NCBI GenBank assembly: GCA_017538895.1
Contig: JAFYHY010000060.1
Span: 1 to 64,000, forward strand
Direction of reading: 5' to 3'
DNA from: Aeriscardovia sp.
Lineage (GTDB): Bacteria > Actinomycetota > Actinomycetes > Actinomycetales > Bifidobacteriaceae
DNA length: 64,000 bases
Part shown: positions 4,808 through 62,084 of the stretch, piece after piece
How the letters are laid out: every line of letters begins with the position of its first letter
Position numbering within the stretch: the first letter of the stretch is position 1
Notes under the pieces: model-generated
Seen by the model: the letters and a program-made list of their open reading frames with translations, nothing else
Databases searched by the model: none
What the model was told of the DNA's origin: nothing
Program-made: the position numbers and the translations under genes

Positions 4808-6154
4808 ATGAGTAACGGATATTACATTCCAGGTCTTTATGTTGAAGACCATAAAGTGACAGTCCCATTAGACTGGCGAGGAATAGAACCACATGATTTT
4901 ACCGCGATTCACGAGCGCTGTGATCACGCTCATCTTACTATGTTCTACCGTGTTATTTGCGCTCCTGACAAAGTTCACAAAGAACTTCCACTTCTAGTCT
5001 TCCTTCAAGGAGGACCAGGAGGAAAATCACCACGTCCATTAAACCCACAATCAGATGGGTGGATTAACGAAGCTATTAAGCATTTCCGTGTAATTCTTCC
5101 AGACCAACGTGGTACAGGCCGATCAAGCCAAGTCACCGGCGCTGTCATTCAAGCACAAGGAACAGCACAACAACAAGCAGACTATCTCAAACGATTCCTT
5201 GCTGACTCCATCATTCGTGATTTCGAATATATTCGCTTAACTGACTTCCATGGAAAACAATGGGTGAGCGAAGGCCAAAGCTACGGTGGATTCCTTACTT
5301 TAACCTACCTATCACTTTATCCAGAAGCCTTATTAGCCTCCTTCACCACAGGAGGAATCCCAGCTATACCAGCAGATGATGACGAACTATATCGCCACAC
5401 CTATGATAAATGCCTCATGAAGAACCAGCAATATTTCGACCGATATCCTCATGACCAAGAAATCATCACACGCATTGCTGACGAACTCGCAGAAGGAACA
5501 ACACAACTACCAAACGGAGACCCCTTCACTGTCCACCGTTTACAAGCATTAGGACAAAGCTTTGGCATGAAACCAAGCTTTGAAAAAGTACATTGGATGC
5601 TTGACACTGCTTTCGACGGAAACGGTCATCTTTCCAACGGATTCTGCAACGACGTGTATACAGTCACCACCTCCTACGGAAACGAACTCTACTGGACCCT
5701 CCAAGAAGGTATCTACATGAACGGGGGAGATGCAGAACAATGCGCCGCACCAAACTGGGCAGCACAACGAGAACTCGACAAACGTCCAGAATTCTCAGAC
5801 ACTGCACGACCACTCCTCTTCACCGGAGAAATGAGCTACCCATGGCGCTTTAACGAAGACGCAGCACTACGCCCATTCCGCGACGCAGAAGAAATCTTCA
5901 TGCAATCCACCGACTGGGGAAAAATCTACGACCTCAACCAACTTCGACACAATGAAGTCCCACTCCAATCCGCCGTCTACTACAACGACATGTACGTACC
6001 ACGCGAACTATCCATGAGAACACTCAACCAAATACCACACTCACACCCATGGGTAACCACCGACTTCGAACACGATGGAGTCCACGGAGACACCGTATTC
6101 TCACACCTCTTCGAACTTGCCCTCAACCGAGGAGACCTCACATTCCTCCACTAA
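4808..6154 (+). CDS. pip: Prolyl aminopeptidase-like alpha/beta hydrolase (peptidase family S33)
   Basis: A cytosolic serine hydrolase predicted to release N-terminal proline or a related residue from peptides. Visible motifs are the oxyanion-hole segment GGPGG (residues 68-72), 'DQRGTGRSS', the nucleophile elbow 'GQSYGG' with Ser158, and a late histidine in 'HDGVHGD' (His422 or His426). At 448 residues it matches the larger prolyl aminopeptidase subgroup. AAGGAAAG lies just before the ATG, 44 bases after sdaA, so the two may be co-transcribed. From about base 5000 onward, third codon positions are nearly all C or A. Substrate specificity cannot be told from sequence alone. Confidence 0.8.
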   Translation: MSNGYYIPGLYVEDHKVTVPLDWRGIEPHDFTAIHERCDHAHLTMFYRVICAPDKVHKELPLLVFLQGGPGGKSPRPLNPQSDGWINEAIKHFRVILPDQRGTGRSSQVTGAVIQAQGTAQQQADYLKRFLADSIIRDFEYIRLTDFHGKQWVSEGQSYGGFLTLTYLSLYPEALLASFTTGGIPAIPADDDELYRHTYDKCLMKNQQYFDRYPHDQEIITRIADELAEGTTQLPNGDPFTVHRLQALGQSFGMKPSFEKVHWMLDTAFDGNGHLSNGFCNDVYTVTTSYGNELYWTLQEGIYMNGGDAEQCAAPNWAAQRELDKRPEFSDTARPLLFTGEMSYPWRFNEDAALRPFRDAEEIFMQSTDWGKIYDLNQLRHNEVPLQSAVYYNDMYVPRELSMRTLNQIPHSHPWVTTDFEHDGVHGDTVFSHLFELALNRGDLTFLH

Positions 6155-6162
6155 CACCACCA

Positions 6163-6203
6163 ACAAAAGGGAAAGACCAACACCGTCTTTCCCTTTTGTC
6201 ATG
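6163..6203 (+). terminator. Intrinsic terminator after the prolyl aminopeptidase gene
   Basis: A perfect 15-bp stem (6163-6177 / 6185-6199) with a 7-base loop. The descending arm carries the U-rich tail. Confidence 0.85.
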
Positions 6204-6216
6204 GCAATGATACCGA

Positions 6217-6222
6217 TACACT
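6217..6222 (+). promoter_or_regulatory. -10 box placing ychF as a possible leaderless mRNA
   Basis: TACACT lies exactly six bases before the ychF ATG, so transcription could start at or next to the start codon. The best -35 candidate is weak (TTTTGT at 6194-6199, spacer 17). An AGGAA also lies in the six-base gap and could instead serve as a ribosome binding site. Confidence 0.45.
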
Positions 6223-6228
6223 AGGAAC

Positions 6229-7320
6229 ATGGCTTTAACTATCGGAATCGTCGGATTACCAAATGTCGGTAAATCCACACTCTTTAACGCATTAACACGA
6301 AATAACGTTCTTGCAGAAAACTACCCATTCGCAACCATCGAACCAAACACCGGTGTCGTCCCACTCCCAGACCCACGATTAAAAGCACTCGCACCAATCG
6401 TCCATACTGAAAAACTAGTGCCAGCAACCGTCACCTTCGTCGATATCGCTGGTATCGTTCGCGGTGCATCAGAAGGAGAGGGATTAGGTAATCAATTCCT
6501 CGCAAACATTCGAGAAGCGGATGCTATTTGCGAAGTAGTTCGCGCTTTCAAAGACGATGACATCGTTCACGTTGACGGTAAGATTGACCCAGCAAGCGAC
6601 ATTGACACCATTAACACAGAACTTATGCTTGCTGATCTTCAAACTATTGAAAAAGCATTACCACGCATGGAAAAAGACCTTCGTGGTAAAAAAATCAAGC
6701 AAGCTGACTACGATGCAGTTATCACCGCAAAAAACATCCTCGAAGCAGGAGAGACCATCGATCACGCAGCTAAAAATGGTAAGATCAACCTCAAAGACAT
6801 TTACGATCTGCACCTCATGACTGCCAAACCATTTATTTACGTCTTCAATGTTGACGATAGTGAACTCTCTGATGAGGCTTTCAAAACACAACTCGCAGAA
6901 TCCGTTGCACCAGCACAAGCAATCTTCCTCAACGCACAATTCGAAGCTGAACTCACTGAACTTGATGAAGAAGACGCTAAAGAAATGCTTGAAGAAAGCG
7001 GACAAGAAGAATCTGGTCTTGACCAACTAGCACGTGTCGGCTTCGATACCCTCGGACTACAAACCTTCCTCACCGCTGGTGAAAAAGAAGTTCGCGCTTG
7101 GACCATCCACAAAGGATGGACCGCACCACAAGCAGCAGGCGTTATCCACTCTGACTTCGAACGTGGATTCATCAAAGCAGAAATTGTCTCCTATAATGAC
7201 CTCATGGCTGCAGGATCCTACGAAAAAGTACGTGAAGCAGGAAAAATGCGCATGGAAGGCAAAGACTACATCATGCAAGACGGCGACATTGTCGAATTCC
7301 GCTTCAACGTCAGCAAATAA
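6229..7320 (+). CDS. ychF: Redox-regulated ATPase YchF (OLA1 family)
   Basis: A ribosome-associated P-loop NTPase of the Obg group that prefers ATP and is linked to oxidative-stress responses. The P-loop GLPNVGKS is at residues 9-16. The base-specificity motif NKxD is replaced by an NVDD segment (residues 207-210), as expected for YchF. The C-terminal TGS-like domain ends 'KDYIMQDGDIVEFRFNV'. At 363 residues it matches the family length. Immediately downstream lies pth, a pairing seen in many bacteria. Confidence 0.95.
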   Translation: MALTIGIVGLPNVGKSTLFNALTRNNVLAENYPFATIEPNTGVVPLPDPRLKALAPIVHTEKLVPATVTFVDIAGIVRGASEGEGLGNQFLANIREADAICEVVRAFKDDDIVHVDGKIDPASDIDTINTELMLADLQTIEKALPRMEKDLRGKKIKQADYDAVITAKNILEAGETIDHAAKNGKINLKDIYDLHLMTAKPFIYVFNVDDSELSDEAFKTQLAESVAPAQAIFLNAQFEAELTELDEEDAKEMLEESGQEESGLDQLARVGFDTLGLQTFLTAGEKEVRAWTIHKGWTAPQAAGVIHSDFERGFIKAEIVSYNDLMAAGSYEKVREAGKMRMEGKDYIMQDGDIVEFRFNVSK

Positions 7321-12920: not shown

Positions 12921-12953
12921 ATTGGATTACCGGCCCACCACCCCTAATCCAAT
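12921..12953 (+). terminator. Weak hairpin after eno
   Basis: A 9-bp stem (12921-12929 / 12945-12953) with a 15-base C-rich loop and no T-run. It may attenuate rather than end eno transcription before ftsB. Confidence 0.4.
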
Positions 12954-12992
12954 TCGCCCATCTATAAAGACAACACGCAAAGCATCGCCACA

Positions 12993-13436: not shown

Positions 13437-13438
13437 AA

Positions 13439-14071
13439 ATGATAGAAAACAACAACCAATACCCACACCTCACCACGAAAGATAAACAACTCTGCATCAA
13501 CCTCGCACAACAAACCCTCACCAACAACAAAGTAACCCAAACAGACATCACCACTGTCACACAACAACTCGGACGCTACCCACGAGGCATCATCGGCATC
13601 GGCGCACGATGTACTCGCTGTCAGATACCACTCGTTGTTATCACCCGACCACTCATCAACGGAACACTACCATTCCCAACAACCTGCTATCTCACAAGTC
13701 GTGAAGCTACCAAAGCAGTATCAGGATTAGAATCAACAGGAGTGATGACACAACTGACTTCACAATTAGCAGACACGACTGATCACGCCAATCATCTTCG
13801 TGAACAGTACTATCGAGCTCACGAAATGTATTTATTCTTCCGCTCCTTACTCGCAGAACACCTAGGAGATAGTGAAGAACATATCGCTTCTATTAGTGCT
13901 GGCGGTATGCCAACACGCGTGAAATGTTTACATGCTCTTGTTGCGCAATCTCTTGTTTTTGGATCTGGAGTCAATCCTGTTGGGGACTGGGCATTAACAC
14001 AAATTAAAGATTCATTCGACCCGCACGTATGTCGTTGCTCTATTCATCTCACTGACAATCAGAAAGGCTGA
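13439..14071 (+). CDS. DUF501 family protein
   Basis: A 210-residue protein of the DUF501 family, which in Actinobacteria lies between ftsB and ppx. It contains a Cys-rich segment 'ARCTRCQIP' (near residue 58) and a 'GGMPTRVKCLHAL' core, typical for the family, plus two more Cys in 'HVCRCSIH' near the C-terminus, suggesting a possible metal site. Function is unknown. About the first 85 codons share the C/A-rich third-position pattern of ftsB; from roughly base 13700 the usage becomes ordinary. Start is the ATG three bases after ftsB. Confidence 0.85.
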   Translation: MIENNNQYPHLTTKDKQLCINLAQQTLTNNKVTQTDITTVTQQLGRYPRGIIGIGARCTRCQIPLVVITRPLINGTLPFPTTCYLTSREATKAVSGLESTGVMTQLTSQLADTTDHANHLREQYYRAHEMYLFFRSLLAEHLGDSEEHIASISAGGMPTRVKCLHALVAQSLVFGSGVNPVGDWALTQIKDSFDPHVCRCSIHLTDNQKG

Positions 14072-15205: not shown

Positions 15206-15246
15206 ATTATAGGGTAAAGTTAAAGGCTTTACCCTATAATTTTTAT
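15206..15246. terminator. Bidirectional terminator between tRNA-Leu and the tail-anchored protein gene
   Basis: A perfect 14-bp stem (15206-15219 / 15227-15240) with a 7-base loop and TTTTTA on the plus side. It serves two convergent units. Confidence 0.9.
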
Positions 15247-16040
15247 CGTAAGGCTCTTGTGATCCACAAAATCAAAGCAGCAATAATCACCGCAATAATC
15301 ACAATAAAAATAAGCCACGTTAAAATTTTCTTTCGTATCTTCTTACTGTCATACGCTTTCACTAATTGATGAGGAGTCTGATTACGAACGTCTTGCAAAT
15401 GAGCCTGAGCTATCTGAATAGAAGACGTATCTTTTTTTACACTCGTTAAATATTCTTTCGCATGATCAATATCATGCGTATTATCAATAGCTTCCTGTAA
15501 AGCACATTGCAAAATATCAAGATTACGTTGATGCTGAGCTACTGTCTCAGGAGCAGCCTCCGAATAATCTAAAACTTTTTGCAAAAACGATTCTGCCTCC
15601 TTATACCGATCAGCAGTAATCGTCAAACAAATACGTGATCCAACCCCATAAATACTCAGATTCAATAATGACGGTTCATCAGTCTCATCATTATCAACAT
15701 CCTCAGTATTCTCTGCAGAAGAAATAGTCTGATTCTCTTGAGCTTGCTCAGTCAAATCAACCGTGACTGACGGATCAAGTGGAAGAGTATAACCCTGATA
15801 ATTTAAATGATCACAATACAAAACAATAGAATCAAAATCAGCAATCTCTTCTGCAAAATGATTCTTTTCAGCAGCTAACTTCTTCTGAGCATTATCAACA
15901 GCTTTATCATGAACCTTTTGAGTAGACTTGACAGCTTTTTCAGCAGTTTTAATACGAGACGCATAATTAGCTTTAGCATTATCTAATGCTTTTTGTGCAT
16001 CGTTAAGACGCGCATATTCAGCAGGATCTTTTCTTCCCAT
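15243..16040 (-). CDS. Tail-anchored coiled-coil membrane protein of unknown function
   Basis: I do not recognise a named family. The 265 residues start with a Lys/Ala-rich heptad-like region (about residues 10-70, coiled coil likely), then an acidic middle with 'ENTEDVDNDETDEPS', a helical region (about residues 150-225), and one C-terminal membrane segment (about 238-260) with a basic lead 'KKIRKKILTW' and a short 'TRALR' tail. There is no signal peptide, so the bulk should be cytosolic and anchored from the C-terminus. AAAAGGGA precedes the ATG. It is monocistronic, ending in a shared terminator. A scaffolding role is possible but unproven. Confidence 0.75.
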   Translation of the reverse strand: MGRKDPAEYARLNDAQKALDNAKANYASRIKTAEKAVKSTQKVHDKAVDNAQKKLAAEKNHFAEEIADFDSIVLYCDHLNYQGYTLPLDPSVTVDLTEQAQENQTISSAENTEDVDNDETDEPSLLNLSIYGVGSRICLTITADRYKEAESFLQKVLDYSEAAPETVAQHQRNLDILQCALQEAIDNTHDIDHAKEYLTSVKKDTSSIQIAQAHLQDVRNQTPHQLVKAYDSKKIRKKILTWLIFIVIIAVIIAALILWITRALR

Positions 16041-18072: not shown

Positions 18073-19578
18073 ATGACTGCTCTTTATGATTCATCATTAA
18101 CGGACATCAACAAAATTTTCTCTGCTTCTACCAAACTGAATGCATCAGACCAAGATTGGCTCCATCGCCTCATCGCAGACTGGTCCATCATTGCTGACCT
18201 TGGATACACAGACCTCGAACTCGTCATCTCCCTCGGAGACAAACACTACATTTACGTTGCTCAATGCCGACCATCAACAAAAGCATCCGCACACCCCAAT
18301 GACCTTGTTGGACAACCAGTAGCAGACTACCTCATCCCGGCAATCGACAAAGCTGTCACTGAAAACGGAGTCTTCTTTGTCCAAAACCCACAAACAGCCA
18401 CCACAAAAACGTCCATTGGACAAGCCATCGCCGCTGTCCGACATGGTAAAAAAGTTATTGGCGCTGTCATCTGGGAAGCAAACCTTACTGAACCAGAAAT
18501 AACAGGACGATATGAAGAATCAGGTATTAAAAGCGCCAGCCAACTCTTCTCTATGATTTCATACAGCAAATTCCCATACCCAAACCCTGTCAATAGCCAA
18601 CGACACAACCCACACGTCGCAGATGGATTCATTGTCCTCAACGATGAAGGAAAAATCGAAAACGCATCACCCAACGCCATCAGCTGTTTCAAACGACTCG
18701 GCTATATCGAATCACTCAAATACAAAAAACCAATCGATGTCGTTACAAGCCTCCAAGACATCAAATTAATGTCAAAAGACCTTCTCACTACGCTCCAAGG
18801 AAACATCTCCAAAGATGCTCTCTTTAGCGCAAGCAATGGTTCATCTGCCACCATGCGCACCTTGCCACTTCTAGACCACGATGACCATTATAAAGGCGCC
18901 GTCATCCTCTGCAGAGACGTCACGGAACTCCGCCGCAGAGACCAAGAACTACAACTCAAAGACGCCGCAATAACCGAAGTACACCACCGCGTCAAAAACA
19001 ACCTTCAAGCAGTATCCGCATTACTCCGTCTCCAAGCACGCAAAACCACCAGTGAAGAAGTAAAACGCGCATTAGCAGAAGCACAACGACGCGTTCAAAC
19101 AATCGCCATTCTTCATGAAGGACTCAGCAAAAGCGTAAACGAAATGCTCAACTTTGACACCGTTCTCGCCAACCTACTACGCATGAGCATTGATGTCGCC
19201 AGATCTAACAATCAAGAAATCACCATATCCTACATAGGACACTTCGGAAAAATCTCATCACAAGATGCTACACCACTTTCTCTTGTTCTCTCTGAACTGG
19301 TTACCAATGCTGTAGAACACGGATTCCAAGGCAGAACAACAGGACATATCATCGTCTCAGTCGAACGATTTACCGATAACCTTAACATCACCATTGAAGA
19401 CGACGGACGAGGAATCCAACACGCAAAAACTGGATCTGATAAACATTCAGGACTAGGAACACAAATCATAGACACCTTTATCAGATCTGATTTCGGGGGA
19501 GATGTTAAGTGGGAACCACGCTCAGGAGGAGGAACACGCGTCGCGATCAACCTCACCCTACGCACTATTCACGAATAA
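18073..19578 (+). CDS. pdtaS: Sensor histidine kinase, PdtaS-like (GAF/PAS plus HisKA_2)
   Basis: A soluble sensor kinase without membrane segments. Order: an N-terminal GAF-like sensor domain (about residues 10-150), a PAS domain (about 180-290), a dimerisation domain of the HisKA_2 class with 'EVHHRVKNNLQAVSALLRLQ' around His304-His305, then an HATPase domain with N-box 'LVTNAVEHGF', 'DDGRGI', 'GLGTQIID' and 'GGTRVAINL'. In Mycobacterium the orthologue lies next to whiB1, as here, and phosphorylates an unlinked ANTAR-domain regulator, encoded here at 33858. It probably senses a small intracellular ligand. Codons in the first 1.1 kb are very C/A-rich at third positions. Confidence 0.88.
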   Translation: MTALYDSSLTDINKIFSASTKLNASDQDWLHRLIADWSIIADLGYTDLELVISLGDKHYIYVAQCRPSTKASAHPNDLVGQPVADYLIPAIDKAVTENGVFFVQNPQTATTKTSIGQAIAAVRHGKKVIGAVIWEANLTEPEITGRYEESGIKSASQLFSMISYSKFPYPNPVNSQRHNPHVADGFIVLNDEGKIENASPNAISCFKRLGYIESLKYKKPIDVVTSLQDIKLMSKDLLTTLQGNISKDALFSASNGSSATMRTLPLLDHDDHYKGAVILCRDVTELRRRDQELQLKDAAITEVHHRVKNNLQAVSALLRLQARKTTSEEVKRALAEAQRRVQTIAILHEGLSKSVNEMLNFDTVLANLLRMSIDVARSNNQEITISYIGHFGKISSQDATPLSLVLSELVTNAVEHGFQGRTTGHIIVSVERFTDNLNITIEDDGRGIQHAKTGSDKHSGLGTQIIDTFIRSDFGGDVKWEPRSGGGTRVAINLTLRTIHE

Positions 19579-28388: not shown

Positions 28389-29279
28389 ATGAGTCAAGCC
28401 CACAAAATAGATGGAAAAGCATGCGCTGCTGCTCTTAAAGAGACTCTCAAAGAACACGTCATCGCACTCAAAAAACAGGGAATCACACCTTGTCTCGGAA
28501 CCATCCTTGTTGGATCTGATCCAGGCTCTTTAAAATATGTTGGAAGCAAACAAAAAGATTGCCAAGAAATAGGAATCGATACCATCGATCTTCGCTTACC
28601 AGAAACAGCAACCTACCAAGACATTCAAAACGCTGTTCTGCAACTTAACCATAATGATTCTTGCACCGGATACATCGTGCAACTACCTTTACCGCAAGGA
28701 ATCAATAGTACAGGAATCCTTGAACTCATCGACCCTCGCAAAGATGCCGACGGATTACATCCGATGAATCTTGGACGTCTCGTTCTCTACGTCAACGGCG
28801 CCTCATTATTCCCAGAACCATGCACACCAGCTGGCATCATCCACCTCTTGAAATGGTCTGATATCCAACTCAATGGGAAAAACATCTGTGTTATCGGCCG
28901 CGGTATCACTGCAGGACGACCATTAGGCTTACTTCTCACACGACGCGACATCAACGCCACTGTCGATACATGTCATACCGGCACACACAATCTCATTGAA
29001 CACATCAAACGAGCAGACATCATTATCTCAGCAGTAGGGAAAGCACATTTCATCACTGCTGATATGATCAACGACCACGCTATTCTCGTTGATGTTGGCG
29101 TCTCCCGCGGACCAGTCAATAGTCAAACTGGAAAATCCCATATCATGGGAGACTTCGATCCATCATGCTACGATAGAGCACTCGCTTATACACCTAACCC
29201 TGGTGGAGTAGGACCAATGACACGTGTCATGCTTCTCAATAATATTGTTTCCATGGCAGCATCACAGCTTCCAAAATAG
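28389..29279 (+). CDS. folD: Methylenetetrahydrofolate dehydrogenase / cyclohydrolase FolD
   Basis: Interconverts 5,10-methylene-, methenyl- and 10-formyl-tetrahydrofolate using NADP. Visible signatures: 'YVGSKQKDCQEIGID' with the active-site Lys of the YxxxK motif, 'GYIVQLPLPQGI', 'DPRKDADGLHPMNLGRL', 'PCTPAGIIHLLK', 'VIGRGITAGRPLGLLLTRR', and 'PNPGGVGPMTRVMLLNN'. 296 residues is normal. AAGGATATTGG precedes the ATG. It may share a transcript with rpsA, although the 197-base gap argues for a separate rpsA promoter. Confidence 0.96.
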   Translation: MSQAHKIDGKACAAALKETLKEHVIALKKQGITPCLGTILVGSDPGSLKYVGSKQKDCQEIGIDTIDLRLPETATYQDIQNAVLQLNHNDSCTGYIVQLPLPQGINSTGILELIDPRKDADGLHPMNLGRLVLYVNGASLFPEPCTPAGIIHLLKWSDIQLNGKNICVIGRGITAGRPLGLLLTRRDINATVDTCHTGTHNLIEHIKRADIIISAVGKAHFITADMINDHAILVDVGVSRGPVNSQTGKSHIMGDFDPSCYDRALAYTPNPGGVGPMTRVMLLNNIVSMAASQLPK

Positions 29280-29356
29280 TCATCCTCGACGTATATATTT
29301 ATTAAAAGCTCATTAATGAGAAGAACATATCATAATTGGCAAGCTTCATGATGCTG

Positions 29357-29395
29357 GTACGTCAGTGGTCATTGAATGGCGTTGAGTGGACGTAC
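29357..29395 (+). promoter_or_regulatory. Stem-loop in the rpsA leader
   Basis: A 7-bp stem (29357-29363 / 29389-29395; GTACGTC / GACGTAC) encloses 25 bases with further partial pairing. It lies about 80 bases before the rpsA start and could be part of an S1 autoregulatory site. Confidence 0.4.
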
Positions 29396-29476
29396 AGTAC
29401 GCAGAGGATTGTTAGTTGTGGTATGTCAATAATTGAACATCGATTTTATTCAACTACTAAAAGAAACAACCACTCA

Positions 29477-30976
29477 ATGTCAAAAAATAATCAAGAGGTT
29501 CAGCAGGTTGCCATCAATGATATTGGCACCGAAGAAGACTTCATTAAAGCTGTAGACGCTACCATCAAGAACTTCAATGATGGCGATCTCGTTACTGGCA
29601 CCATCGTTCGTATCGATCATGACGAAGTACTTCTCGATATCGGATACAAGACTGAAGGTGTTATTCCAGCTCGTGAGCTCTCTATCAAGAAGGATATTGA
29701 TCCTGAAGATGTTGTTGATCTTGGTGATGAAGTTGAAGCACTTGTCGTGACCAAGGAAGATAAAGAAGGTCGTCTGATCCTCTCGAAGAAGCGCGCACAG
29801 TATGAGCGTGCATGGGGTGATGTCGAACAGATTAAGGAAGCTGACGGTATCGTTGAAGGTACTGTTATTGAAGCCGTTAAGGGTGGTCTCATCGTTGATA
29901 TCGGTCTTCGTGGATTCCTTCCTGCATCCCTCGTTGAAATGCGTCGCGTTCGCGATCTCACTCCTTATATTGGTCAGCAGATCAAGGCTAAGGTTCTCGA
30001 GCTCGACAAGAACCGCAACAATGTTGTTCTTTCTCGTCGTCAGTATCTTGAAGAAACTCAGTCTGAAGTTCGCGAAACCTTCATGGCACAGCTCCAGAAG
30101 GGTCAGATCCGTGAAGGTACCGTTAGCTCCATTGTTAACTTCGGTGCATTCATTGATCTTGGCGGTGTAGATGGTCTCATCCATGTTTCCGAATTGTCTT
30201 GGAAGCATATTGATCACCCATCTGAGGTTGTCAAGGTTGGTCAAAAGGTTACCGTTGAAGTTCTCGACGTTGACTTGGATCGTGAACGTATCAGCCTCTC
30301 TCTCAAGGCAACACAAGAAGATCCATGGCAGAAGTTTGCTCGCACCCACGTTCCTGGACAGATTGTCAAGGGCAAAGTCACCAAGATCGTTCAGTTTGGT
30401 GTCTTCGTTGCTGTTGATGACGGTATTGAAGGCCTCGTTCACATCTCTGAACTTGCTGATCGTCATGTCAACAACCCAGCAACTGTCGTTGCACAGGGTG
30501 AAGAAATCTTCGTCAAGGTTATTGACGTTGATCTCGATCGTCGTCGCATCAGCCTCTCTCTCAAGCAAGCTGATGATTCCATCGATCCAGCTTCTGAAGA
30601 TTTCGACCCAGCATTATACGGCATGCCAGCTGAGTACGATGAAAATGGAAACTACAAGTATCCTGAAGGCTTCGACCCATCCACCAACGAATGGATCGAA
30701 GGATACGAGGAGCAGCGTGAACAGTGGGAGTCTGAATACGCTACTGCTCATGATCTTTGGGAAGAACACAAGGCTTTCATTTCCAAGCAACGTGCTGCTG
30801 CTGAGAAGTCTGCTGCTGAAGATGGTCAAGATCAAGCTGAAGAAGAACCAGCAGAAGAACCAGCAGAAGAATCAACAGCTAACAGCTATCACTCTGAAAC
30901 AAAGTCCGAAGGAACTTTGGCTTCCGATGACCAGCTTGCAGCTTTACGCGAAAAGCTCATGGGAGAAAAGAACTGA
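29477..30976 (+). CDS. rpsA: 30S ribosomal protein S1
   Basis: Binds mRNA and helps load it on the ribosome. I chose the ATG at 29477 (499 residues, 'MSKNNQEV'), since upstream frames read sequence unlike any S1. Four S1 OB-fold repeats follow: about residues 35-105 ('GTIVRIDHDEVLLDIGYKTEGVIP'-like, in parts), 120-190, 210-280 and 295-370, the actinobacterial four-domain form. An acidic Glu/Ala/Pro tail ends the protein. Codons differ from the surrounding genes (many AAG, GGT, CGT, CTC), as expected for very high expression. The start has only a weak AAGAAA ribosome binding site, known for S1 genes elsewhere. Confidence 0.95.
   Translation: MSKNNQEVQQVAINDIGTEEDFIKAVDATIKNFNDGDLVTGTIVRIDHDEVLLDIGYKTEGVIPARELSIKKDIDPEDVVDLGDEVEALVVTKEDKEGRLILSKKRAQYERAWGDVEQIKEADGIVEGTVIEAVKGGLIVDIGLRGFLPASLVEMRRVRDLTPYIGQQIKAKVLELDKNRNNVVLSRRQYLEETQSEVRETFMAQLQKGQIREGTVSSIVNFGAFIDLGGVDGLIHVSELSWKHIDHPSEVVKVGQKVTVEVLDVDLDRERISLSLKATQEDPWQKFARTHVPGQIVKGKVTKIVQFGVFVAVDDGIEGLVHISELADRHVNNPATVVAQGEEIFVKVIDVDLDRRRISLSLKQADDSIDPASEDFDPALYGMPAEYDENGNYKYPEGFDPSTNEWIEGYEEQREQWESEYATAHDLWEEHKAFISKQRAAAEKSAAEDGQDQAEEEPAEEPAEESTANSYHSETKSEGTLASDDQLAALREKLMGEKN
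30842..30877 (+). repeat. 12-bp tandem repeat in the rpsA tail
   Basis: Two exact units GAAGAACCAGCA and a third with two changes encode Glu-Glu-Pro-Ala repeats; it is an in-frame, slippage-prone run. Confidence 0.8.
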
Positions 30977-34493: not shown

Positions 34494-37439
34494 ATGAACG
34501 AATCTAATGAACCAAGTACTACTTTTTCTGAAGATACAATACGTGCAGCAGTGCATAATGCTTTTATAGAACAAAGTACGAAGACATTGCAACAAGTTGA
34601 AACCATAGTTCATTACCCAAAAATTAAAGAACCAAATGGGCGTCTCCTTGTCGTTGATGGTCATTCATTAGCTTTTCGTGCTTTTTTCGCTTTACCAGTT
34701 GATAGCTTCACTAACCAAAACGGTCAAAGTACCAATGCTGTGTACGGTTTTATCAATATGCTGATGGAAACCATTCAAAAAGAACAGCCAACACATCTCG
34801 GTGTCGCGTTTGATATGCATGGTGGTACCTTCCGTAATGTCATGCTTACCGGATACAAAGGAACCAGAAACGCAGCACCATCAGAATTATTAACGCAGAT
34901 CCCACTCATCCAACAATTCCTCACGGCCTTAAACATCCCATACATTGAAATACCAGGATATGAAGGCGACGATGTTATCGCATCATTAGCAACCTACGCA
35001 GAAAAAAATTCGTATGAAACACTTGTTCTCTCAGGAGACCGTGATTCCTTCCAACTCATCGACGAAAATATCACCGTTCTTTATCCAGGACGCCACTTCA
35101 GTGATCTCCAACACATCACACCAAACGTTGTTCAAGAAAAATACAAAGTCACCCCAAACCAATATCCTGACATCGCCGCATTACGAGGAGAACAAGCAGA
35201 CAACATTCCAGGAGTTCCAGGAGTAGGAGACGGGTATGCTGCAAAATGGCTTGCCCAATTCGGATCACTCGAAAACCTCCTCAACAACGCGCAAAACATA
35301 CCAGGCAAAAAAGGACAAGCACTCCGCGACAACATTGAACAAGTCAAACTCAACCGACGTGTCAATGCAGTCGTCCGTAACCTTGACTGCGGTGTCGACT
35401 TCCAACAACTCCATATCGGACAACCACATATCCCAGACGTTGCACAACTACTTTCACAACTCCAATTCGGGAAACGCATGCGAGACAAAGTAGCCACCAT
35501 CTTCAACATCGACAGCAACTCACTCATACCACAACAATCACCATCAAACATACACAAAACAGAACAACAAGAATTCTCATACCCACTCGATAACTGTCAA
35601 CCAGCTGATCCACAAACTGATCAAATACACGACGATACCCACACCATCACCGATAACCAACACCTATCCCAATGGTTCACAGACACAACAAACCCCTACA
35701 TCATCTACTGCAACGGCACCTCTCATCCCGGACAATCCCATTGCACCACCATCAGTTTCTTACGAACTGACCAGCACCTCATCTCTCTCCAACACACAGA
35801 CTGCATCACCTATCACGATACAATCCAACATATCTTGCATACACGCACACTCATCGTCCACGGATACAAACAAACCATCCAATTAGCAGCAGAATTCCAC
35901 CTCACCATCCCACAACCTCTCTTTGACACAGAACTCGCAGCCTATCTCATCGACTCAGAATACACAGGAGAAACACTCACTGACCTGGCCTCACACTTCT
36001 TACGATATAAACCAGCACTCGCTCATCAAACCACAGCATACGCGATTCAAGATGGGTTTGATTTTGGTAGTGATGAAGAACTCATTGCTGATCAGCATAA
36101 TGAGCAAGAAAAAAATATTCTTTCCTGCAGTATTATCAATGCTTTATATATCAGTCTCGCTTCTGTTATTCATGATCGAAATCAAGATGATTTACTCACA
36201 CGCATTGAAATCCCAACTGCTGCTGTTCTCGCAGATATTGAAATGCATGGGTCAGCTGTTGATAGTTCACGATTAGATCAGTTACTTCAAGACTTTTCTC
36301 TTCAAGCGCAACAAGCGCACGATATCGCTTTAGAAGCTGCAGGACCAGGACATGATGATCTCAACTTGCAAAGCCCTAAACAACTTAGTCATGTTCTCTT
36401 CGACGAAATGAACTTAAAAGGCGGTAAAAAAACAAAAACAGGTGGATATTCAACCAATGCTTCTGCACTTCAAAAATTGTATCTTTGTTCCTATAACAAT
36501 GATCAAGCAAATACCTTTTTAGGGGCATTACTACGCTATCGTGAAGTCAATAAACTGAAACAGATCATGCAATCCTTAAAAGATGCTATTCATACTGATG
36601 ATCATTGTATTCATACAACCTTCTGTCAGAACATTACTGCAACAGGACGTTTAAGCTCAATGGATCCGAACCTTCAAAATATTCCTAACCGAAGTACTGA
36701 AGGACGGTTGATCCGTAGTATCTTTGTTCCACAATCACCATATATATCATTATTAAGTGCTGATTATTCTCAAATGGAACTCCGTATTATGGCGCATTTA
36801 TCTGGTGATAAAGCGCTTATTGAAGCATTTACTTCTGGGGTTGATTTTCATCGATATACTGCTTCCTTAGTGTACCAGACTCCTATGGAGCAAGTTACTG
36901 ATACACAACGCAATCATGTTAAAGCTATGAGTTATGGCCTTGCGTATGGTCTTAGTACCTATGGATTATCACAGCAATTGTCCATTAGTAACGATGATGC
37001 TAAGGAATTAAAATCAAAATACTTTAAGACCTTTGGAAGTGTTGAAGATTATTTGAAATCACTTGTTGATAAGGCAAAGAAGCTAGGGTATACCGAAACA
37101 ATGTTTGGGCGTCGTCGTTATTTTCCTAACTTACGTTCTAATAATCGAACAGCACGTATGGCAGCTGAACGTGCAGCATTAAATGCACCAATTCAAGGCT
37201 CATCTGCTGACATTATGAAAATAGCCATGGTACGTACGGCTCATGATCTTAAAGAAGCTCATTTACAATCAACCATTATTCTTCAAATTCATGATGAATT
37301 AGTTATCGAAGTTGCTTCTCATGAAGAAGAGCAAGTAACTAGCATTGTTAAAAATGCGATGGAACATGCTATTACCTTATCAGTTCCTCTTACCGTTTCT
37401 ATTGGTATGGGTACTAATTGGCAAACCGCAGCACACTGA
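34494..37439 (+). CDS. polA: DNA polymerase I
   Basis: 981 residues: an N-terminal 40-residue lead, a 5'-3' exonuclease domain (about 45-330; 'LLVVDGHSLAFRAFFALP', 'YEGDDVIASLA', 'SGDRDSFQLI', 'GVPGVGDGYAAKWLAQFG'), a 3'-5' exonuclease-like domain (about 390-580) without the DxE metal motif, so probably no proofreading, and the polymerase domain with motif A 'DYSQMELRIM' (Asp757), motif B 'RNHVKAMSYGLAYG', and motif C 'HDE' (933-935). It fills gaps in repair and removes Okazaki primers. Third-position usage flips sharply to C/A near base 34860 and back near 36048. The Nif3-like gene begins 12 bases after its stop. Confidence 0.95.
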   Translation: MNESNEPSTTFSEDTIRAAVHNAFIEQSTKTLQQVETIVHYPKIKEPNGRLLVVDGHSLAFRAFFALPVDSFTNQNGQSTNAVYGFINMLMETIQKEQPTHLGVAFDMHGGTFRNVMLTGYKGTRNAAPSELLTQIPLIQQFLTALNIPYIEIPGYEGDDVIASLATYAEKNSYETLVLSGDRDSFQLIDENITVLYPGRHFSDLQHITPNVVQEKYKVTPNQYPDIAALRGEQADNIPGVPGVGDGYAAKWLAQFGSLENLLNNAQNIPGKKGQALRDNIEQVKLNRRVNAVVRNLDCGVDFQQLHIGQPHIPDVAQLLSQLQFGKRMRDKVATIFNIDSNSLIPQQSPSNIHKTEQQEFSYPLDNCQPADPQTDQIHDDTHTITDNQHLSQWFTDTTNPYIIYCNGTSHPGQSHCTTISFLRTDQHLISLQHTDCITYHDTIQHILHTRTLIVHGYKQTIQLAAEFHLTIPQPLFDTELAAYLIDSEYTGETLTDLASHFLRYKPALAHQTTAYAIQDGFDFGSDEELIADQHNEQEKNILSCSIINALYISLASVIHDRNQDDLLTRIEIPTAAVLADIEMHGSAVDSSRLDQLLQDFSLQAQQAHDIALEAAGPGHDDLNLQSPKQLSHVLFDEMNLKGGKKTKTGGYSTNASALQKLYLCSYNNDQANTFLGALLRYREVNKLKQIMQSLKDAIHTDDHCIHTTFCQNITATGRLSSMDPNLQNIPNRSTEGRLIRSIFVPQSPYISLLSADYSQMELRIMAHLSGDKALIEAFTSGVDFHRYTASLVYQTPMEQVTDTQRNHVKAMSYGLAYGLSTYGLSQQLSISNDDAKELKSKYFKTFGSVEDYLKSLVDKAKKLGYTETMFGRRRYFPNLRSNNRTARMAAERAALNAPIQGSSADIMKIAMVRTAHDLKEAHLQSTIILQIHDELVIEVASHEEEQVTSIVKNAMEHAITLSVPLTVSIGMGTNWQTAAH

Positions 37440-37451
37440 GAAAGAAAAATT

Positions 37452-38399
37452 ATGAGTGAATTAACCTTAGCACAAGTTGTTACGCAGCTTGAAACACTAT
37501 ACCCATTACGATATGCGGAAAGTTGGGATTATCCTGGTCTTATTATCGGTGAACCGTCGGCATCTGTTAAAAAAATTTATTGTGCCGTTGACCCAAGTAT
37601 TGATATTGCTCGAGAAGCTGTAGCATGGGGTGCTGATCTGCTGATTACTCATCATCCTTTATGGTTCCGTTCGGTTCATACCATTTCTGGTGCTGGACAT
37701 CGTGGTTATGTGGCGCAAATGTTAATACAAAATCATTGTGCTTTATGGGTAGGGCATACAAATGCTGATGCAGCACATAGGGGAGTTAGTCATGTTTTAG
37801 CTGATGAACTTGGTCTTACTCATCAGGTACCTTTAGTTCCATTGTCAGATCCAACTTCACCATATCCTGTTGGTGAGGGGCGTGTAGGAGAGTTGAAATC
37901 TGCGATTTCATTGTATGATCTGGCTCAGCGAGTGAATGCGCTCATTCCACCAACAAAGCGTGGTATTGATGTTGCCGGTGACCTGGACATGCTTGTTCGT
38001 CATATTGCTATTGTGGGTGGATCAGGGGATTCGCTTTTAAATGAAGTTCGTCAGGCGCATGTTGATGTGTATATCACTAGTGATTTGCGTCATCACCCAA
38101 CATTAGATGCAATGCAGCAAGCACAACGTGAAGCTGATCTTCGTGCACAAGGAATTACTGTCAAAAATGAAATTATTCACGGTATAGCAGCTGATTATGA
38201 TGTTGATATTAAACCAGCATTAATTAATATTCCTCATTATGCTGCTGAAAAGAAGTGGTTTGATTATGCTATTCCTGACTTATTACAGGCATTGAAAGAG
38301 CATTATGATATTGTTCCTGAAATTTCTTTATCAGAGACGGATACAGATCCGTGGACTTTGCATTTGGATTCTCCTCAGGAGCCACATTTACCACGTTGA
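37452..38399 (+). CDS. Nif3-like dinuclear metal-centre protein (DUF34/NIF3)
   Basis: 315 residues of the NIF3/YbgI family, hexameric rings with a two-metal site; proposed roles include GTP cyclohydrolase-like or metal-handling activity, still unsettled. Key segments: 'YAESWDYPGLIIGEP' (the usual WDNxGL, here WDYPGL, losing the Asn), 'DLLITHHPLWFRSVHTI' with the His-His metal ligands, and 'VYITSDLRHHPTLDAM' late in the chain; the typical final 'HxxxE' metal site reads 'IIHGIAADYD'-like. It follows polA by 12 bases and is probably co-transcribed. tRNA-Pro lies downstream. Confidence 0.88.
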   Translation: MSELTLAQVVTQLETLYPLRYAESWDYPGLIIGEPSASVKKIYCAVDPSIDIAREAVAWGADLLITHHPLWFRSVHTISGAGHRGYVAQMLIQNHCALWVGHTNADAAHRGVSHVLADELGLTHQVPLVPLSDPTSPYPVGEGRVGELKSAISLYDLAQRVNALIPPTKRGIDVAGDLDMLVRHIAIVGGSGDSLLNEVRQAHVDVYITSDLRHHPTLDAMQQAQREADLRAQGITVKNEIIHGIAADYDVDIKPALINIPHYAAEKKWFDYAIPDLLQALKEHYDIVPEISLSETDTDPWTLHLDSPQEPHLPR

Positions 38400-45686: not shown

Positions 45687-46460
45687 ATGACATATTTCTT
45701 TTTTGATATCGATGGCACACTCATTCCTGGAACAGGAAATCATGACATCCCATACGATACACGAGAAGCATTAAACCAGTTACAACACAATGGGCATTTC
45801 CTCGCACTCGCAACAGGCCGCGAGCATTGCTTAGCTGTCCCAGAAATGCAACAACTCGGATTTACCAACATGGTTTCTGATGGCGGATATGGCGTCACTA
45901 TTAACAATATGCTTCTGTCTATTGACCCACTAGATGATATTGAAGCCTGTTTCGCATTAGCTGACGAATGTGACCAGAAACATATCCCATGGGCCTATGA
46001 TTCTGAAGATATTCCTGAACGATTAACAAAATCAGTAGAATTCAAAGAATTAACTGATACACCATTCCAACAAAGTGTGGTGATACCTGACCTCGATATC
46101 AAAAAAGAAACACGCGTCAATCGCATGTTTGTTGCTCTTGACGAAGGCCATGAAGAAGAAGTACTCCCATCGCTCCGACACGTTCCATGGATGCGATACG
46201 ATCACGCAAATTACATCTACGTTGAACCACAAAATAAAGCACGCGGTATTAAAAAAATTCTCAATTACTTCCATGCCAATGATGCTGACGTAGTTGTCTT
46301 TGGTGATTCCTTAAATGATCTGTCCATGTTCATCCCAGAATGGACATGCATTGCTATGGGTAATGCCTGCACCGAACTGAAAGAAAAAGCAGATTACGTT
46401 ACCACAGCAGTCGACAACGGTGGTATCAGCCATGCTCTCCATCACTTTAGATGGATTTAA
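45687..46460 (+). CDS. HAD-IIB (Cof-type) phosphatase
   Basis: 257 residues from the ATG at 45687; a TTG three codons upstream is less likely. Motif I 'FFFDIDGTLIP' supplies the nucleophile and acid Asp, motif II Thr is in 'LALATGR', the C2B cap is in the middle, motif III Lys in 'NKARGIKKIL', motif IV 'VVFGDSLNDLSMF'. The family dephosphorylates sugar phosphates, pyridoxal phosphate or flavin nucleotides, often with overlapping specificity; none can be assigned here. Probably co-transcribed with the aldo/keto reductase gene. Confidence 0.93.
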   Translation: MTYFFFDIDGTLIPGTGNHDIPYDTREALNQLQHNGHFLALATGREHCLAVPEMQQLGFTNMVSDGGYGVTINNMLLSIDPLDDIEACFALADECDQKHIPWAYDSEDIPERLTKSVEFKELTDTPFQQSVVIPDLDIKKETRVNRMFVALDEGHEEEVLPSLRHVPWMRYDHANYIYVEPQNKARGIKKILNYFHANDADVVVFGDSLNDLSMFIPEWTCIAMGNACTELKEKADYVTTAVDNGGISHALHHFRWI

Positions 46461-48260: not shown

Positions 48261-49151
48261 TTATTTTTCATCAGGAACACGTACTGGTAAATGGCTCATT
48301 AAATGATTCCAATTATCAGACAGAATTGATGCAACTTCAGTATCCTGAGAAACGCAATTTTTCACTTGGCTGATTGCGTGAGACAACATGTCATAAGGAT
48401 CATCAGATGCTGATAAGTGTGCTAATGGCAGGTGCGAAGAGAAAAGAATATTATCCGCACCATACGTAGAAACCACTGTCGTTAGTAGACGAGGATCCAT
48501 TAACGCAGTATCACAATATACATGTGTCAGATGATTCTGTTGAATACTTTCAAAAAGAGACAGCACTTTGTCAGATGCAAACACGCCATGCGCAATCACT
48601 ATGAGATGAGGATATTTCACAAAGTAGTCTTGACGAATACAGTTTAATAATACCTCGCAGATCTGATCAGCATCCGCATCAATCATCCATAACGGACGAC
48701 TAATATCAGAAGCTGTTTTAAAAAGAGATTCAAAACAAGCACTACTTAAAAGATCATGATGATACATACTTGGAATCTGACCGCCAAGCAATGAATCAGA
48801 AGATGCAATATCCTCCATCAAAACTTTTTCTGCCTGTTCACTATGACCTAACGGTAGGGTAGCAATCGCACCTTCAAAAATTTCAGGATTATCAGCTACC
48901 AATTTTTTTAAACCATTATTAATCTTTTTCAACGTACGTAGCGGCAATGATTCATCCAAACGACCCATACCAGGAAAAGCAATAATCTCCTGCGTCAAAG
49001 GAGGATTCGCAAGTAAACGATCATCCATATCAGTTAATAAATCATCATGAGGAAGACGAGGAAGAGACTTCGTTGACGGGGGAACAGCAAAAGTACACGT
49101 ATCAACCGTAATATTATTCATTTCAATCTCGTTTGTCATAACTGTTAGCAT
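48261..49151 (-). CDS. Amidohydrolase-2-like protein without recognisable metal ligands
   Basis: 296 residues with weak resemblance to the ACMSD-type amidohydrolase (TIM-barrel) family: 'NPEIFEGAIATLPLG' (like 'PDRFxGLAxLPL'), 'YPHLIVIAHGV' (like 'PxLKIVxxHxG') and 'YGADNILFSSHLPL' (like 'GADRVLFGSDYP'). The metal-binding N-terminal HxH is not visible and the late catalytic Asp is His or Ser here, so a dead enzyme or a new activity is possible. The start is uncertain: in-frame ATGs at 49139 and 49118 could also serve. It is divergent from uvrD (48 bases) and probably co-transcribed with the dehydrogenase gene. Confidence 0.55.
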   Translation of the reverse strand: MLTVMTNEIEMNNITVDTCTFAVPPSTKSLPRLPHDDLLTDMDDRLLANPPLTQEIIAFPGMGRLDESLPLRTLKKINNGLKKLVADNPEIFEGAIATLPLGHSEQAEKVLMEDIASSDSLLGGQIPSMYHHDLLSSACFESLFKTASDISRPLWMIDADADQICEVLLNCIRQDYFVKYPHLIVIAHGVFASDKVLSLFESIQQNHLTHVYCDTALMDPRLLTTVVSTYGADNILFSSHLPLAHLSASDDPYDMLSHAISQVKNCVSQDTEVASILSDNWNHLMSHLPVRVPDEK

Positions 49152-49198
49152 ATCAAGGAGAATGTATCCCCTCTATTAGTAATGAAAAGCGAAAAATA

Positions 49199-51565
49199 AT
49201 GAGCGAAGAATCCAATACGCAAGCAACCAGTACAATCGACACGTTACTCAGCGGCCTCAATAAAGAACAAGCTGAAGCAGTTACCAGCAACAGTCCAGCG
49301 TTACTTATCGCAGCTGGCGCAGGATCAGGAAAAACACGAGTCATTACCTACCGTATCGCATGGATTCTTAACCAAAAGAAAGCGAACCCCTCACAAATCC
49401 TCGCTATCACTTTCACCAACAAAGCGGCCACTGAAATGAAAGAACGCCTTCAAAAACTCATCGGTCCAGCAGCAAAAAACATGTGGATATCCACCTTCCA
49501 CTCCGCCTGCGTCCGCATCCTTCGACACTGGCATGAAGCAGCAGAACTAGACCGCAACTTCACCATCTACGATCAACAAGATTCAGAAAAACTCATCAAA
49601 AATATTGAAAACGACCTCAACATCGACAGTAAACAATACACACCACGATCTGTTCTCTCACAAATCTCACGATACAAAAACAAACTTCAAAACGCACAAG
49701 ACATTCTCCACGAATACAACCTCACCTATACACCAGGCGAATCACACGGATCACTCACCACCATCAACAAAGAACAAACCACCGCCTTCATCTACGCGGA
49801 ATACCAACATCGACTTCATACAGCTAATGCCATCGACTTCGACGACATCATCAACACCACCATCACCATCCTCCACAACAATCCCACTATCGCACACTAC
49901 TACCAACAAAAATTCACATACATCTTCGTCGACGAATACCAAGACACTAACTACGCACAATACACACTCATCCGAGAACTCGGAGGATACACCACAAACA
50001 CACCCACACCACACGCTAATATCACCGTTGTCGGCGACGCAGATCAATCAATCTACGCCTTCCGCGGAGCAGACATTAGCATCATCCGTAATTTCGAACA
50101 CGACTTCCCACAAGCACACACCGTCTTCCTTGAACAAAACTACCGATCAACCCAAAACATCCTCGACGCAGCAAACGCCGTCATCGCAGTAGACCACCAA
50201 GGAAAAATCAAAAAACTCAGAACCAACTTCTCAAAAGGCGACCGCATCACAGGCTACGTCGCCAACACTGCAAAAAGCGAAGCAAAATACATCATCACCG
50301 AAATAAAACACCTACACCAGGAACAACACATCCCATACAGTGACATCGCTATCATGTACCGCACCAACGCACAATCACGCTACCTCGAAGAAGCACTTAC
50401 CAAAGTACCAATCCCATACCAACTCATCGGAGGAACACGATTCTACGACAGACAAGAAATCAAAGACGCACTCGCATATTTACGTGTTATTGCAAATCCT
50501 AATGATGATATTAGTTTGCAACGAATTCTCAATGTGCCACATCGTGGTATTGGTAAGCAAACAGAACAAACAGTTATGGAGTATGCGCGTCAGAAGACGC
50601 TATCATTCTGGACTGCTTTACATCAGGTAGCAGATTTTCCTGTAGCATCACATAGTCAGAAAAAAATTGAGTCTTTCATTCACCTGATTGAAGGATTTAT
50701 CACTAGTAATCGTCAGGGTATACAACCATCAGCATTATTGGATACGATTCTTCATGATACTGGTTTGCTTGATGAATTACGTCAAGCGGCAACCGTTAAT
50801 GTTCAAGAGGAAAATCGTCTTGAGAACCTCGCGCAGTTACAGTCTATTGCTGAGGAATATGAAAAGTCAGCAGAAGAACCCGCTCTTAATGATTTCCTTG
50901 AATTAATATCTTTATCGAGTGAGTTAGATCAGCTGACTGATACAAGTGATGGTGCTGTTATTTTAATGACTCTGCATACAGCAAAGGGACTGGAATATCC
51001 TGTTGTTTTCCTTTGCGGTTTTGAAGAAGGATTGTTCCCTCATATTCGATCTCTTAATAATGAGAATGAGCTTGCTGAAGAACGACGTTTAGCCTATGTT
51101 GGTATTACGCGTGCAAAACAGAAACTGTATATTACGCGTGCACAACAACGATCACAGTGGGGAAGAGTAGAAGAATCGGAAGAAAGTCGTTTCTTAACAG
51201 ATATCAAAGATATGATTGATTGGAATTTTGAGGCTCCTCAACCGATGCATAAGTATCATTCCTATGATCAATCATCCTGGAACCATTCCTCATGGAATAA
51301 CCATGCGTCGTATTCTCATGAATCATCCTCTTCTATGCAAAAGAGTAAGCCAGTCATCTCACGACATATAGAGGTTTCTTATTCAGTATCACGACCTACA
51401 AAACCTGCAAATCAACAAAGTTTTGCTCCAGGGGATCGCGTGACACATGATTCATATGGTTTAGGTAAAGTCCTCGCAACTGATGGTAAAACCGTCACTG
51501 TTGATTTTGGATCTGATGGTGTCAAACGATTACTGATTCGATTAGCCCCATTAGAAAAGCTATAA
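49199..51565 (+). CDS. pcrA: ATP-dependent DNA helicase PcrA/UvrD
   Basis: A superfamily 1A 3'-5' helicase for nucleotide excision repair, mismatch repair and clearing replication conflicts. 788 residues: 'LNKEQAEAV' Q-motif, Walker A 'AGAGSGKTRVI', 'FTNKAATEMKER', Walker B 'FVDEYQDTNYAQ', 'VGDADQSIYAFRGAD', 'EQNYRSTQNIL', 'TLHTAKGLEYPVVFLCGFEEGLFPH' (in parts), 'VGITRAKQKLYI'. The C-terminal Tudor-like domain ('PGDRVTHDSYGLGKVLATDG') binds RNA polymerase in PcrA. Third codon positions change abruptly near base 50476. The rpsD leader follows. Confidence 0.96.
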   Translation: MSEESNTQATSTIDTLLSGLNKEQAEAVTSNSPALLIAAGAGSGKTRVITYRIAWILNQKKANPSQILAITFTNKAATEMKERLQKLIGPAAKNMWISTFHSACVRILRHWHEAAELDRNFTIYDQQDSEKLIKNIENDLNIDSKQYTPRSVLSQISRYKNKLQNAQDILHEYNLTYTPGESHGSLTTINKEQTTAFIYAEYQHRLHTANAIDFDDIINTTITILHNNPTIAHYYQQKFTYIFVDEYQDTNYAQYTLIRELGGYTTNTPTPHANITVVGDADQSIYAFRGADISIIRNFEHDFPQAHTVFLEQNYRSTQNILDAANAVIAVDHQGKIKKLRTNFSKGDRITGYVANTAKSEAKYIITEIKHLHQEQHIPYSDIAIMYRTNAQSRYLEEALTKVPIPYQLIGGTRFYDRQEIKDALAYLRVIANPNDDISLQRILNVPHRGIGKQTEQTVMEYARQKTLSFWTALHQVADFPVASHSQKKIESFIHLIEGFITSNRQGIQPSALLDTILHDTGLLDELRQAATVNVQEENRLENLAQLQSIAEEYEKSAEEPALNDFLELISLSSELDQLTDTSDGAVILMTLHTAKGLEYPVVFLCGFEEGLFPHIRSLNNENELAEERRLAYVGITRAKQKLYITRAQQRSQWGRVEESEESRFLTDIKDMIDWNFEAPQPMHKYHSYDQSSWNHSSWNNHASYSHESSSSMQKSKPVISRHIEVSYSVSRPTKPANQQSFAPGDRVTHDSYGLGKVLATDGKTVTVDFGSDGVKRLLIRLAPLEKL

Positions 51566-60569: not shown

Positions 60570-62084
60570 ATGCAGCATGCCGAAAATAATGATCATGTGA
60601 CACAAGACCAGAGAACAATCGATGTTGAGATGGATCAATATGTCCAAAATCGCATGCATACCAATGAAGAAAAAATAGAAGAAGACAACAAAATCCTTGC
60701 AGAATTCGGCGACTATAGTTACGGTTGGCATGATTCCGATGAAGCAGGACAAGCAGCACAAAAAGGAATAAACGAAGATATTGTCCGCGCTATCTCAGCA
60801 GATAAACACGAACCGCAATGGATGCTCGATTACCGCCTACAAGGATACAAAGCATTCGTAGCAAAAAGCCTTCCAAAATGGGGCGTCGACCTTAACGACT
60901 TCAATGAACAAGACTTCAAATACTACGTTAAACCAGTCGATAAACAAGCAACATCATGGGATGAACTCCCAACAGACATCAAAAACACATACGATCGTCT
61001 CGGCATCCCAGAAGCAGAAAAAAAACGACTTGTCTCCGGAGTCGCTGCACAATACGAGTCAGAAGTCATCTATAACTCCATCCAAAAAGAACTCGCCGAA
61101 CAAGGCGTCATCTTCACCGACACTGACACCGCCGTACAAAAATATCCAGAACTCGTCAAAAAATACTTCACCAAAGTCATCCCAGCCGATGACAACAAAT
61201 TCGCAGCACTTAACACCGCAGCATGGTCAGGCGGATCCTTCGTCTACGTACCAAAAGGCGTACACGTCACCATCCCACTACAAGCCTACTTCCGTATCAA
61301 CACCCCAAACATGGGACAATTCGAACGAACCCTCATCATCGCTGACGAAGGATCCTACGTTCATTACGTCGAAGGATGCACCGCACCACTCTACTCAACA
61401 GACTCACTCCACGCAGCCGTCGTCGAAATCGTCGTCGAAAAAAACGCGCGCGTCCGTTACACTACCATCCAAAACTGGTCCAACAACGTTTATAACCTCG
61501 TCACACAACGCGCCTACGTACGTGAAAACGGCATGATGGAATGGGTCGACGGCAACATCGGCTCAAAAGCCTCCATGAAATACCCAGCATGCATCCTCGC
61601 TGAACCATATGCAAAAGCAATGACCATGTCCCTTACCTTCGCAGCAAAAGGACAATACCAAGACACTGGCGCAAAAATGATTCATCTCGCACCACACACC
61701 AGCTCAACCATCATCGCTAAATCCATTTCTAAAGACGGAGGACGATCAGCATACCGAGGACTCGTCAAAATCATTAAAGGCGCAGAGCACTCGCAATCAT
61801 CAGTGTCCTGTGACGCGTTACTAGTTGATGATTTTTCACGGTCGGATACGTATCCTCATGTCGATGTTCGTGAGTCTGAAGTGAATATGTCTCATGAAGC
61901 GACTGTGTCCAAGATTTCTCAAGATCAGTTGTTTTACTTAATGAGCCGTGGTGTTGAAGAAAAAGAAGCAACTGGCATGATTGTACGAGGTTTCGTTGAG
62001 CCTATTTCTAAGCTTTTACCAATGGAATATGCGTTAGAGCTTAATCGTTTAGTTTCATTGCAAATGGAAGGATCAATTGGATGA
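60570..62084 (+). CDS. sufB: Fe-S cluster assembly protein SufB
   Basis: Scaffold subunit of the SufBCD complex. 504 residues with a right-handed beta-helix core: '[24 protein letters not shown]' (in parts), 'VEGCTAP' (Cys-containing), '[24 protein letters not shown]' (in parts), and late '[21 protein letters not shown]'. The Cys of '[14 protein letters not shown]' and the Glu of the beta-helix ('MSHE'-type) belong to the assembly site. Third positions are C/A-rich from about 60730 to 61786, then change abruptly. The gene overlaps sufD by four bases. No SufR-type repressor gene lies upstream; pyrG does. Confidence 0.96.

Follow-up and report, generated by a model that had tools for sequence, protein, structure and literature searches.

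An A/C-rich patch in the polA gene of Aeriscardovia sp. (Bifidobacteriaceae) is one of about a hundred mutational tracts in this genome, each of which starts at the same octamer, GCACTCGC, and runs for about a kilobase to one side of it, which looks like the long-term footprint of a Chi-like signal for the repair of DNA breaks. The strand carrying the octamer is A/C-rich for about 1.2 kb on its 5' side only, the changes are transitions only and their cause acts on DNA, not codons. Although the site-anchored mutational tract is shown, Chi function and the polymerase involved are inferred.

The polA island and its boundaries

The window is the whole stretch of DNA that was analysed, i.e. bases 1-64,000 of contig C72 (100,913 bp) of a 1.41 Mb genome in 163 contigs (assembly GCA_017538895.1, hereafter G000). 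The first-pass annotation had described within polA a synonymous island of about 1.2 kb, extending from the end of the 5' nuclease domain to just before the polymerase domain, and this observation is confirmed. Its codon counts are exact, since the 39 codons in 35403-35519 have 17 C, 4 T, 16 A and 2 G at third positions, while 36123-36239 has 9 C and 22 T. Third-position A+C is 0.44 in 34494-34844, 0.82 in the tract and 0.44 in 36023-37436. A gradual slope in place of two edges had been named in advance as an outcome that would count against the island, but in polA a box with edges at about 34845 and 36015 fits better than an exponential slope (log-likelihood -261.7 vs -272.6). However, uvrD decays gradually and the sufB tract is about 1.05 kb. 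The near edge is fixed at the octamer while the far edge varies from site to site, and the genome-wide mean is a plateau of about 0.5 kb followed by a decay over 0.5-1.3 kb.

The accompanying interpretation is partly supported. The proposal that the polA, uvrD and sufB islands, which are close in length, share one cause is right, since the right edge of all three lies at GCACTCGC (Table 1), but the cause itself had not been identified. The coincidence with protein domains is incidental, and a domain-based explanation was rejected, because tracts are placed by the octamer, occur in both gene orientations and both polarities, and extend into intergenic DNA. The comparison of island edges across strains that had been suggested as a test was not made, the nearest genomes being two congeners (G001 and G002) with a median orthologue identity of about 66%, but the phenomenon recurs in them with a one-base variant of the octamer (see below).

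Table 1. Position of the features discussed in the text (window coordinates unless a contig is given; G002, congener)
Position	Strand	Feature	Basis
34494..37439	+	polA (DNA polymerase I): 5' nuclease domain, degenerate exonuclease-like region, polymerase domain	Pfam PF02739, PF01367, PF00476
34845..36014	+	A/C-rich tract in polA, 5' side of the octamer, 1.17 kb	third-position A+C; box fit
36015..36022	+	GCACTCGC anchoring the polA tract, in frame (Ala-Leu-Ala, residues 508-510)	exact word
48663..50467	+	A/C-rich tract covering the first half of uvrD and the 5' end of the preceding (-) gene	HMM segmentation; bins
50468..50475	+	GCACTCGC in uvrD/pcrA	exact word
60668..61786	+	A/C-rich tract in sufB	HMM segmentation; bins
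61787..61794	+	GCACTCGC in sufB	exact word
5116..6384	+	A/C-rich tract 5' of the octamer at 6385	5' 600 bp A+C 0.86
6385..6392	+	GCACTCGC; GCGCTCGC sits at the homologous codons in G002	exact word; alignment
29178..29185	+	GCACTCGC with a weaker tract	0.68
45804..45811	+	GCACTCGC with a weak tract	0.62
11971-13741 and 18204-19563		Strong A/C-rich tracts without an exact GCACTCGC at the right edge	
15243-16040	-	Gene with G/T-rich third positions, no nearby octamer in the right orientation	
37452-38399	+	Gene with G/T-rich third positions, no nearby octamer in the right orientation	
29336-30976		rpsA-like gene region with long antisense ORFs (e.g. 29480-30568, -)	
C72:70636-71586		era, third positions A.05 C.01 G.47 T.47	Pfam
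C72:97751-98368		ruvA, third positions A.35 C.60 G.02 T.03	Pfam
C28:4797-8573 and 8629-12816		AdnAB, tandem genes	Pfam; solved AdnB and AdnA chains
C28:17055-18368		dinB	
C36:111694		dnaA	
C53:about 8281		dif-like core, GCCGATAATATATGTTATGTCAAAT	by eye from a core search; synteny
G002 C11:about 14499		Syntenic dif-like core, TTACCGATAATGCACGTTATGTCAGAA	by eye from a core search; synteny

A single octamer anchors tracts throughout the genome

The islands are genome-wide and polar. Third-position A+C in windows of 60 codons is strongly over-dispersed (SD 0.144 against a binomial 0.065), far beyond chance, while the corresponding values in E. coli are 0.072 and 0.064. Since initial gene calls by longest ORF were unreliable in G/T-rich strands, which have few stops, genes were called again with a score that ignores transitions at third positions; the long antisense ORFs in the rpsA-like region are probably shadow frames of a highly expressed gene. 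Tracts occur in both polarities, as illustrated by era and ruvA, which are both real genes by Pfam. In the segmentation, all 11 direct switches run from AC to GT left to right and none the other way, which suggested processes running outward from fixed points, and inspection of the sharp edges revealed the same word at nearly all of them.

All 119 copies of GCACTCGC in 975 kb of this genome were tested. In the window the octamers are at 6385, 29178, 36015 (polA), 45804, 50468 (uvrD) and 61787 (sufB), all on the + strand. It has the highest score of all 8-mers for a one-sided step and is also the most over-represented 8-mer (119 observed vs 9.7 expected, i.e. 12x, and 119 vs 20 for the reversed control in the whole genome). 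On the site strand, A+C is 0.75, 0.73, 0.71, 0.66, 0.60 and 0.56 in successive 250 bp bins 5' of the site, reaching baseline by 2.5-3 kb, and 0.48-0.51 on the 3' side. The step is positive at 105 of 115 measurable sites (z = 23), and 20,000 random sets never exceeded 0.043 against 0.245 observed. Of the AC-to-GT steps of at least 0.45, 28 of 31 have the exact word within 100 bp, against 0 of 1 GT-to-AC step, and several of the other edges carry a one-base variant, as expected of decayed sites. However, about 29% of strongly skewed windows lack a correctly oriented site within 2.5 kb. In the window, two genes with G/T-rich third positions and no nearby octamer in the right orientation are an unexplained part of the pattern, while two strong A/C-rich tracts without an exact octamer at the right edge are possibly fossils of lost sites (Table 1). 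Replication-strand skew alone was rejected because the skew flips at kilobase scale.

The octamer is short, non-palindromic and strict. Among 24 one-base variants away from exact sites in G000, only GCGCTCGC has a clear effect (0.181, n = 9; the next best with n of 5 or more is 0.082). An unsupervised scan of G001 and G002 independently ranks GCGCTCGC first in both (z = 7.8 and 6.4), again with an unchanged purine/pyrimidine ratio, and the genus word is therefore GCRCTCGC. The congeners differ hugely from G000 in GC content (0.585 and 0.637 vs 0.41), and the difference between the two octamers is in line with this drift. Only 8 of 44 alignable G000 sites carry GCGCTCGC at the same codons in G002, so most sites turn over. 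In a sister genus (g4, genome G020, loci L180-L198), GCACTCGC is over-represented 3.4x, often in one orientation per contig, but there is no tract, which is possibly the same signal without the mutagenesis. Pooled polA-flank loci of Bifidobacterium (213 kb) gave no effect for either GCGCTCGC or GCACTCGC, although this is weak evidence since it represents one locus per species.

This pattern bears on the possibility that islands are fragments imported from donors with other codon usage, or assembly chimaeras. Although polA has two fairly sharp edges, such mosaicism can explain neither a fixed octamer at one edge, nor both polarities, nor an unchanged purine/pyrimidine ratio, nor recurrence in two congeners, and it was rejected as refuted by the octamer anchoring.

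A transition-only process acting on DNA

At fourfold sites, the pyrimidine fraction is nearly unchanged (0.581 in the background, 0.573 and 0.541 in tracts), while C/(C+T), which goes from 0.281 to 0.635 or 0.133, and A/(A+G) move strongly in the direction set by the site strand. Short intergenic gaps follow the flanking third positions (A+C 0.27 to 0.68), although their response is weaker, and codon positions 1 and 2 move too. Amino-acid identity to congeners is lower on the 5' side of sites than on the 3' side (0.636 vs 0.677, paired p = 0.016). Codon usage or expression was rejected as a cause because genes in both orientations are affected in opposite ways and intergenic DNA follows. Selection on composition more generally, e.g. 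for unstructured A/C-rich single strands for RecA loading, mRNA structure or codon preference, would be consistent with tracts being strongest next to a functional-looking site and with the weaker intergenic than synonymous response. However, it is improbable in view of the unchanged purine/pyrimidine ratio, the opposite effects in era and ruvA, and the raised protein divergence in tracts.

On the G/T-gaining strand, A-to-G shifts exceed C-to-T shifts (logit about 1.5-1.7 vs 0.9-1.0, computed from the fourfold fractions), which fits copying errors better than cytosine deamination. Base damage of exposed single-stranded DNA at the same Chi-like site is thus an unlikely alternative. While C-to-T and A-to-G on one strand are both deamination outcomes, cytosine deamination is much faster than adenine deamination, and the strand exposed in a Chi model is the A/C-rich one, i.e. 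the wrong strand.

Chromosomal context

Outside the terminus zone, the octamer points from oriC to dif. All 10 sites on contig C36 lie to the left of dnaA on the strand pointing away from it, although C36 genes are evenly split between strands. Synteny with G002 orders contigs C28-C111-C72-C53, and a dif-like core on C53, just beyond the window's contig, has a syntenic counterpart in G002 and marks the probable terminus. An actinobacterial dif consensus gave no hit at the strict threshold; dif was picked by eye from core searches and is supported by synteny only. Along C28-C111-C72 (1-69 kb), 22 of 23 sites point to dif, whereas within about 40 kb of dif orientation is mixed, density is three-fold higher (0.36 per kb vs 0.12 overall) and tracts are strongest. 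Tract strength falls with distance from dif (rho -0.53, p = 0.001 for dif-pointing sites; -0.35, p = 0.014 for all sites). No octamer was found in the 38.9 kb phage contig C5 (locus L099, with major head, portal and terminase genes), where about 4.8 would be expected at the genome density, which leaves the rarity of the octamer in mobile DNA undecided.

Leading-strand bias and a density that rises towards the terminus, both of which were observed, would also be consistent with a chromosome-organizing polar motif (KOPS/FtsK-type or AIMS-type), the tract coming from some other strand-specific process at the bound protein. This is unlikely, however, because FtsK needs strict polarity close to dif, which is not what was found (13 of 28 sites within 60 kb of dif; of these, 7 of 13 at 20-60 kb point away), and because no known DNA synthesis or damage is tied to KOPS.

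A putative Chi-like site for AdnAB

The only end-processing pair found in searches for UvrD-like motors and PD-(D/E)XK nucleases is AdnAB, encoded by tandem genes that both have the two Pfam domains and whose best matches among solved structures are AdnA and AdnB chains. The dinB gene lies about 4 kb away, and is on the same contig as at least one of the pair in both congeners. MutS is absent and NucS present in all three genomes.

The explanation we favour, with a probability of roughly 0.6, is that GCACTCGC (GCGCTCGC in congeners) is a Chi-like recombination signal read by the AdnAB helicase-nuclease. In this view, when a chromosome end is processed from the 3' side of the site, the enzyme would switch at the octamer and leave the octamer-bearing strand as a 3' single-stranded tail on its 5' side, while the opposite strand would be removed for about 1 kb and later resynthesized. 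That resynthesis would be error-prone with a G.T-wobble spectrum (G placed opposite T, T opposite G), so that the new strand would gain G and T and the tail strand C and A, which are exactly the observed bases. Repeated at a persistent site, this would bring third positions close to saturation (94% G+T in era, 95% A+C in ruvA). What the analysis establishes is a one-sided, strand-specific and transition-only DNA change anchored at the octamer, together with its over-representation, its polarity outside the terminus zone, the strongest tracts near dif, the recurrence in congeners with a one-base variant and the presence of AdnAB. That AdnAB recognizes the octamer, that the 5'-ending strand is the one resynthesized and that a low-fidelity polymerase (possibly the neighbouring DinB) makes the errors are inferences, no binding, cleavage, change in enzyme activity or recombination having been measured. 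Furthermore, E. coli Chi shows no such tract (step -0.008, z = -0.9), so a Chi site alone does not cause this, and NucS, which is reported to act on G.T mismatches, should limit wobble errors.

An alternative in which a site-specific nickase or restriction-type enzyme nicks the GCGAGTGC strand, whose 3' end would be extended by strand-displacement synthesis for about 1 kb with wobble errors and become G/T-rich 3' of the nick, predicts the same one-sided, strand-specific tract and would agree with the strict sequence requirement. It seems unlikely, however, because it explains neither the over-representation, nor the oriC-to-dif polarity, nor the gradient from dif, a nick site should be avoided rather than accumulated, and no candidate enzyme was identified.

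A bolder reading, which we regard as about as likely as not, is that of a lineage-specific end-processing system in which each Chi-like octamer drives directional, strand-specific and saturating transition mutagenesis of the adjacent kilobase, so that the genome carries a readable record of where breaks were processed, and protein evolution is locally steered by octamer position. The tracts suggest that end repair in this organism is strongly mutagenic and leaves a strand-resolved record, so that the polarity, length and positional frequency of resection (highest near dif) can be read from one genome. The finding offers a sequence candidate for a Chi-like signal in an AdnAB organism, a question described as unresolved in 2026 (PMC13309787), and a way to find such sites in uncultured genomes from base composition alone, without genetics. 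It also warns that codon-usage islands or intragenic skew steps need not mean gene transfer or selection.

Comparison with known systems

Chi sites are known, but no report was found of a compositional tract at them or of a Chi-like word for an AdnAB organism, nor any paper mentioning GCACTCGC or its complement as a word, although absence from the open-access literature, to which the search was restricted, is weak evidence. Like the Chi sites of E. coli (GCTGGTGG, with RecBCD) and the AddAB Chi of Firmicutes, the octamer is non-palindromic, strongly over-represented and on the leading strand pointing to the terminus, with an effect on the 5' side only that decays over a kilobase scale, an effect seen here for the mutational tract and not for recombination frequency. 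It differs in sequence, in the enzyme present, which is AdnAB, for which Chi-like regulation is described as unclear (PMC13309787), and in its tract, which E. coli Chi lacks. As in AIMS (architecture imparting sequences) and KOPS (FtsK polar sequence), the octamers are strand-biased and denser towards dif, but their orientation is mixed close to dif and each copy carries a mutational tract, neither of which is to our knowledge a feature of KOPS or AIMS. Break-repair-associated (stress-induced) mutagenesis by DinB-type polymerases similarly links double-strand-break processing to local polymerase errors, but the E. coli zones are broad and not Chi-delimited, while here the signal is anchored at an octamer, strand-specific and saturated over evolutionary time. 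Finally, replication-associated GC skew shows the same base asymmetry (one strand G/T, the other A/C), but it is replichore-wide, in contrast to kilobase tracts that flip at the octamer.
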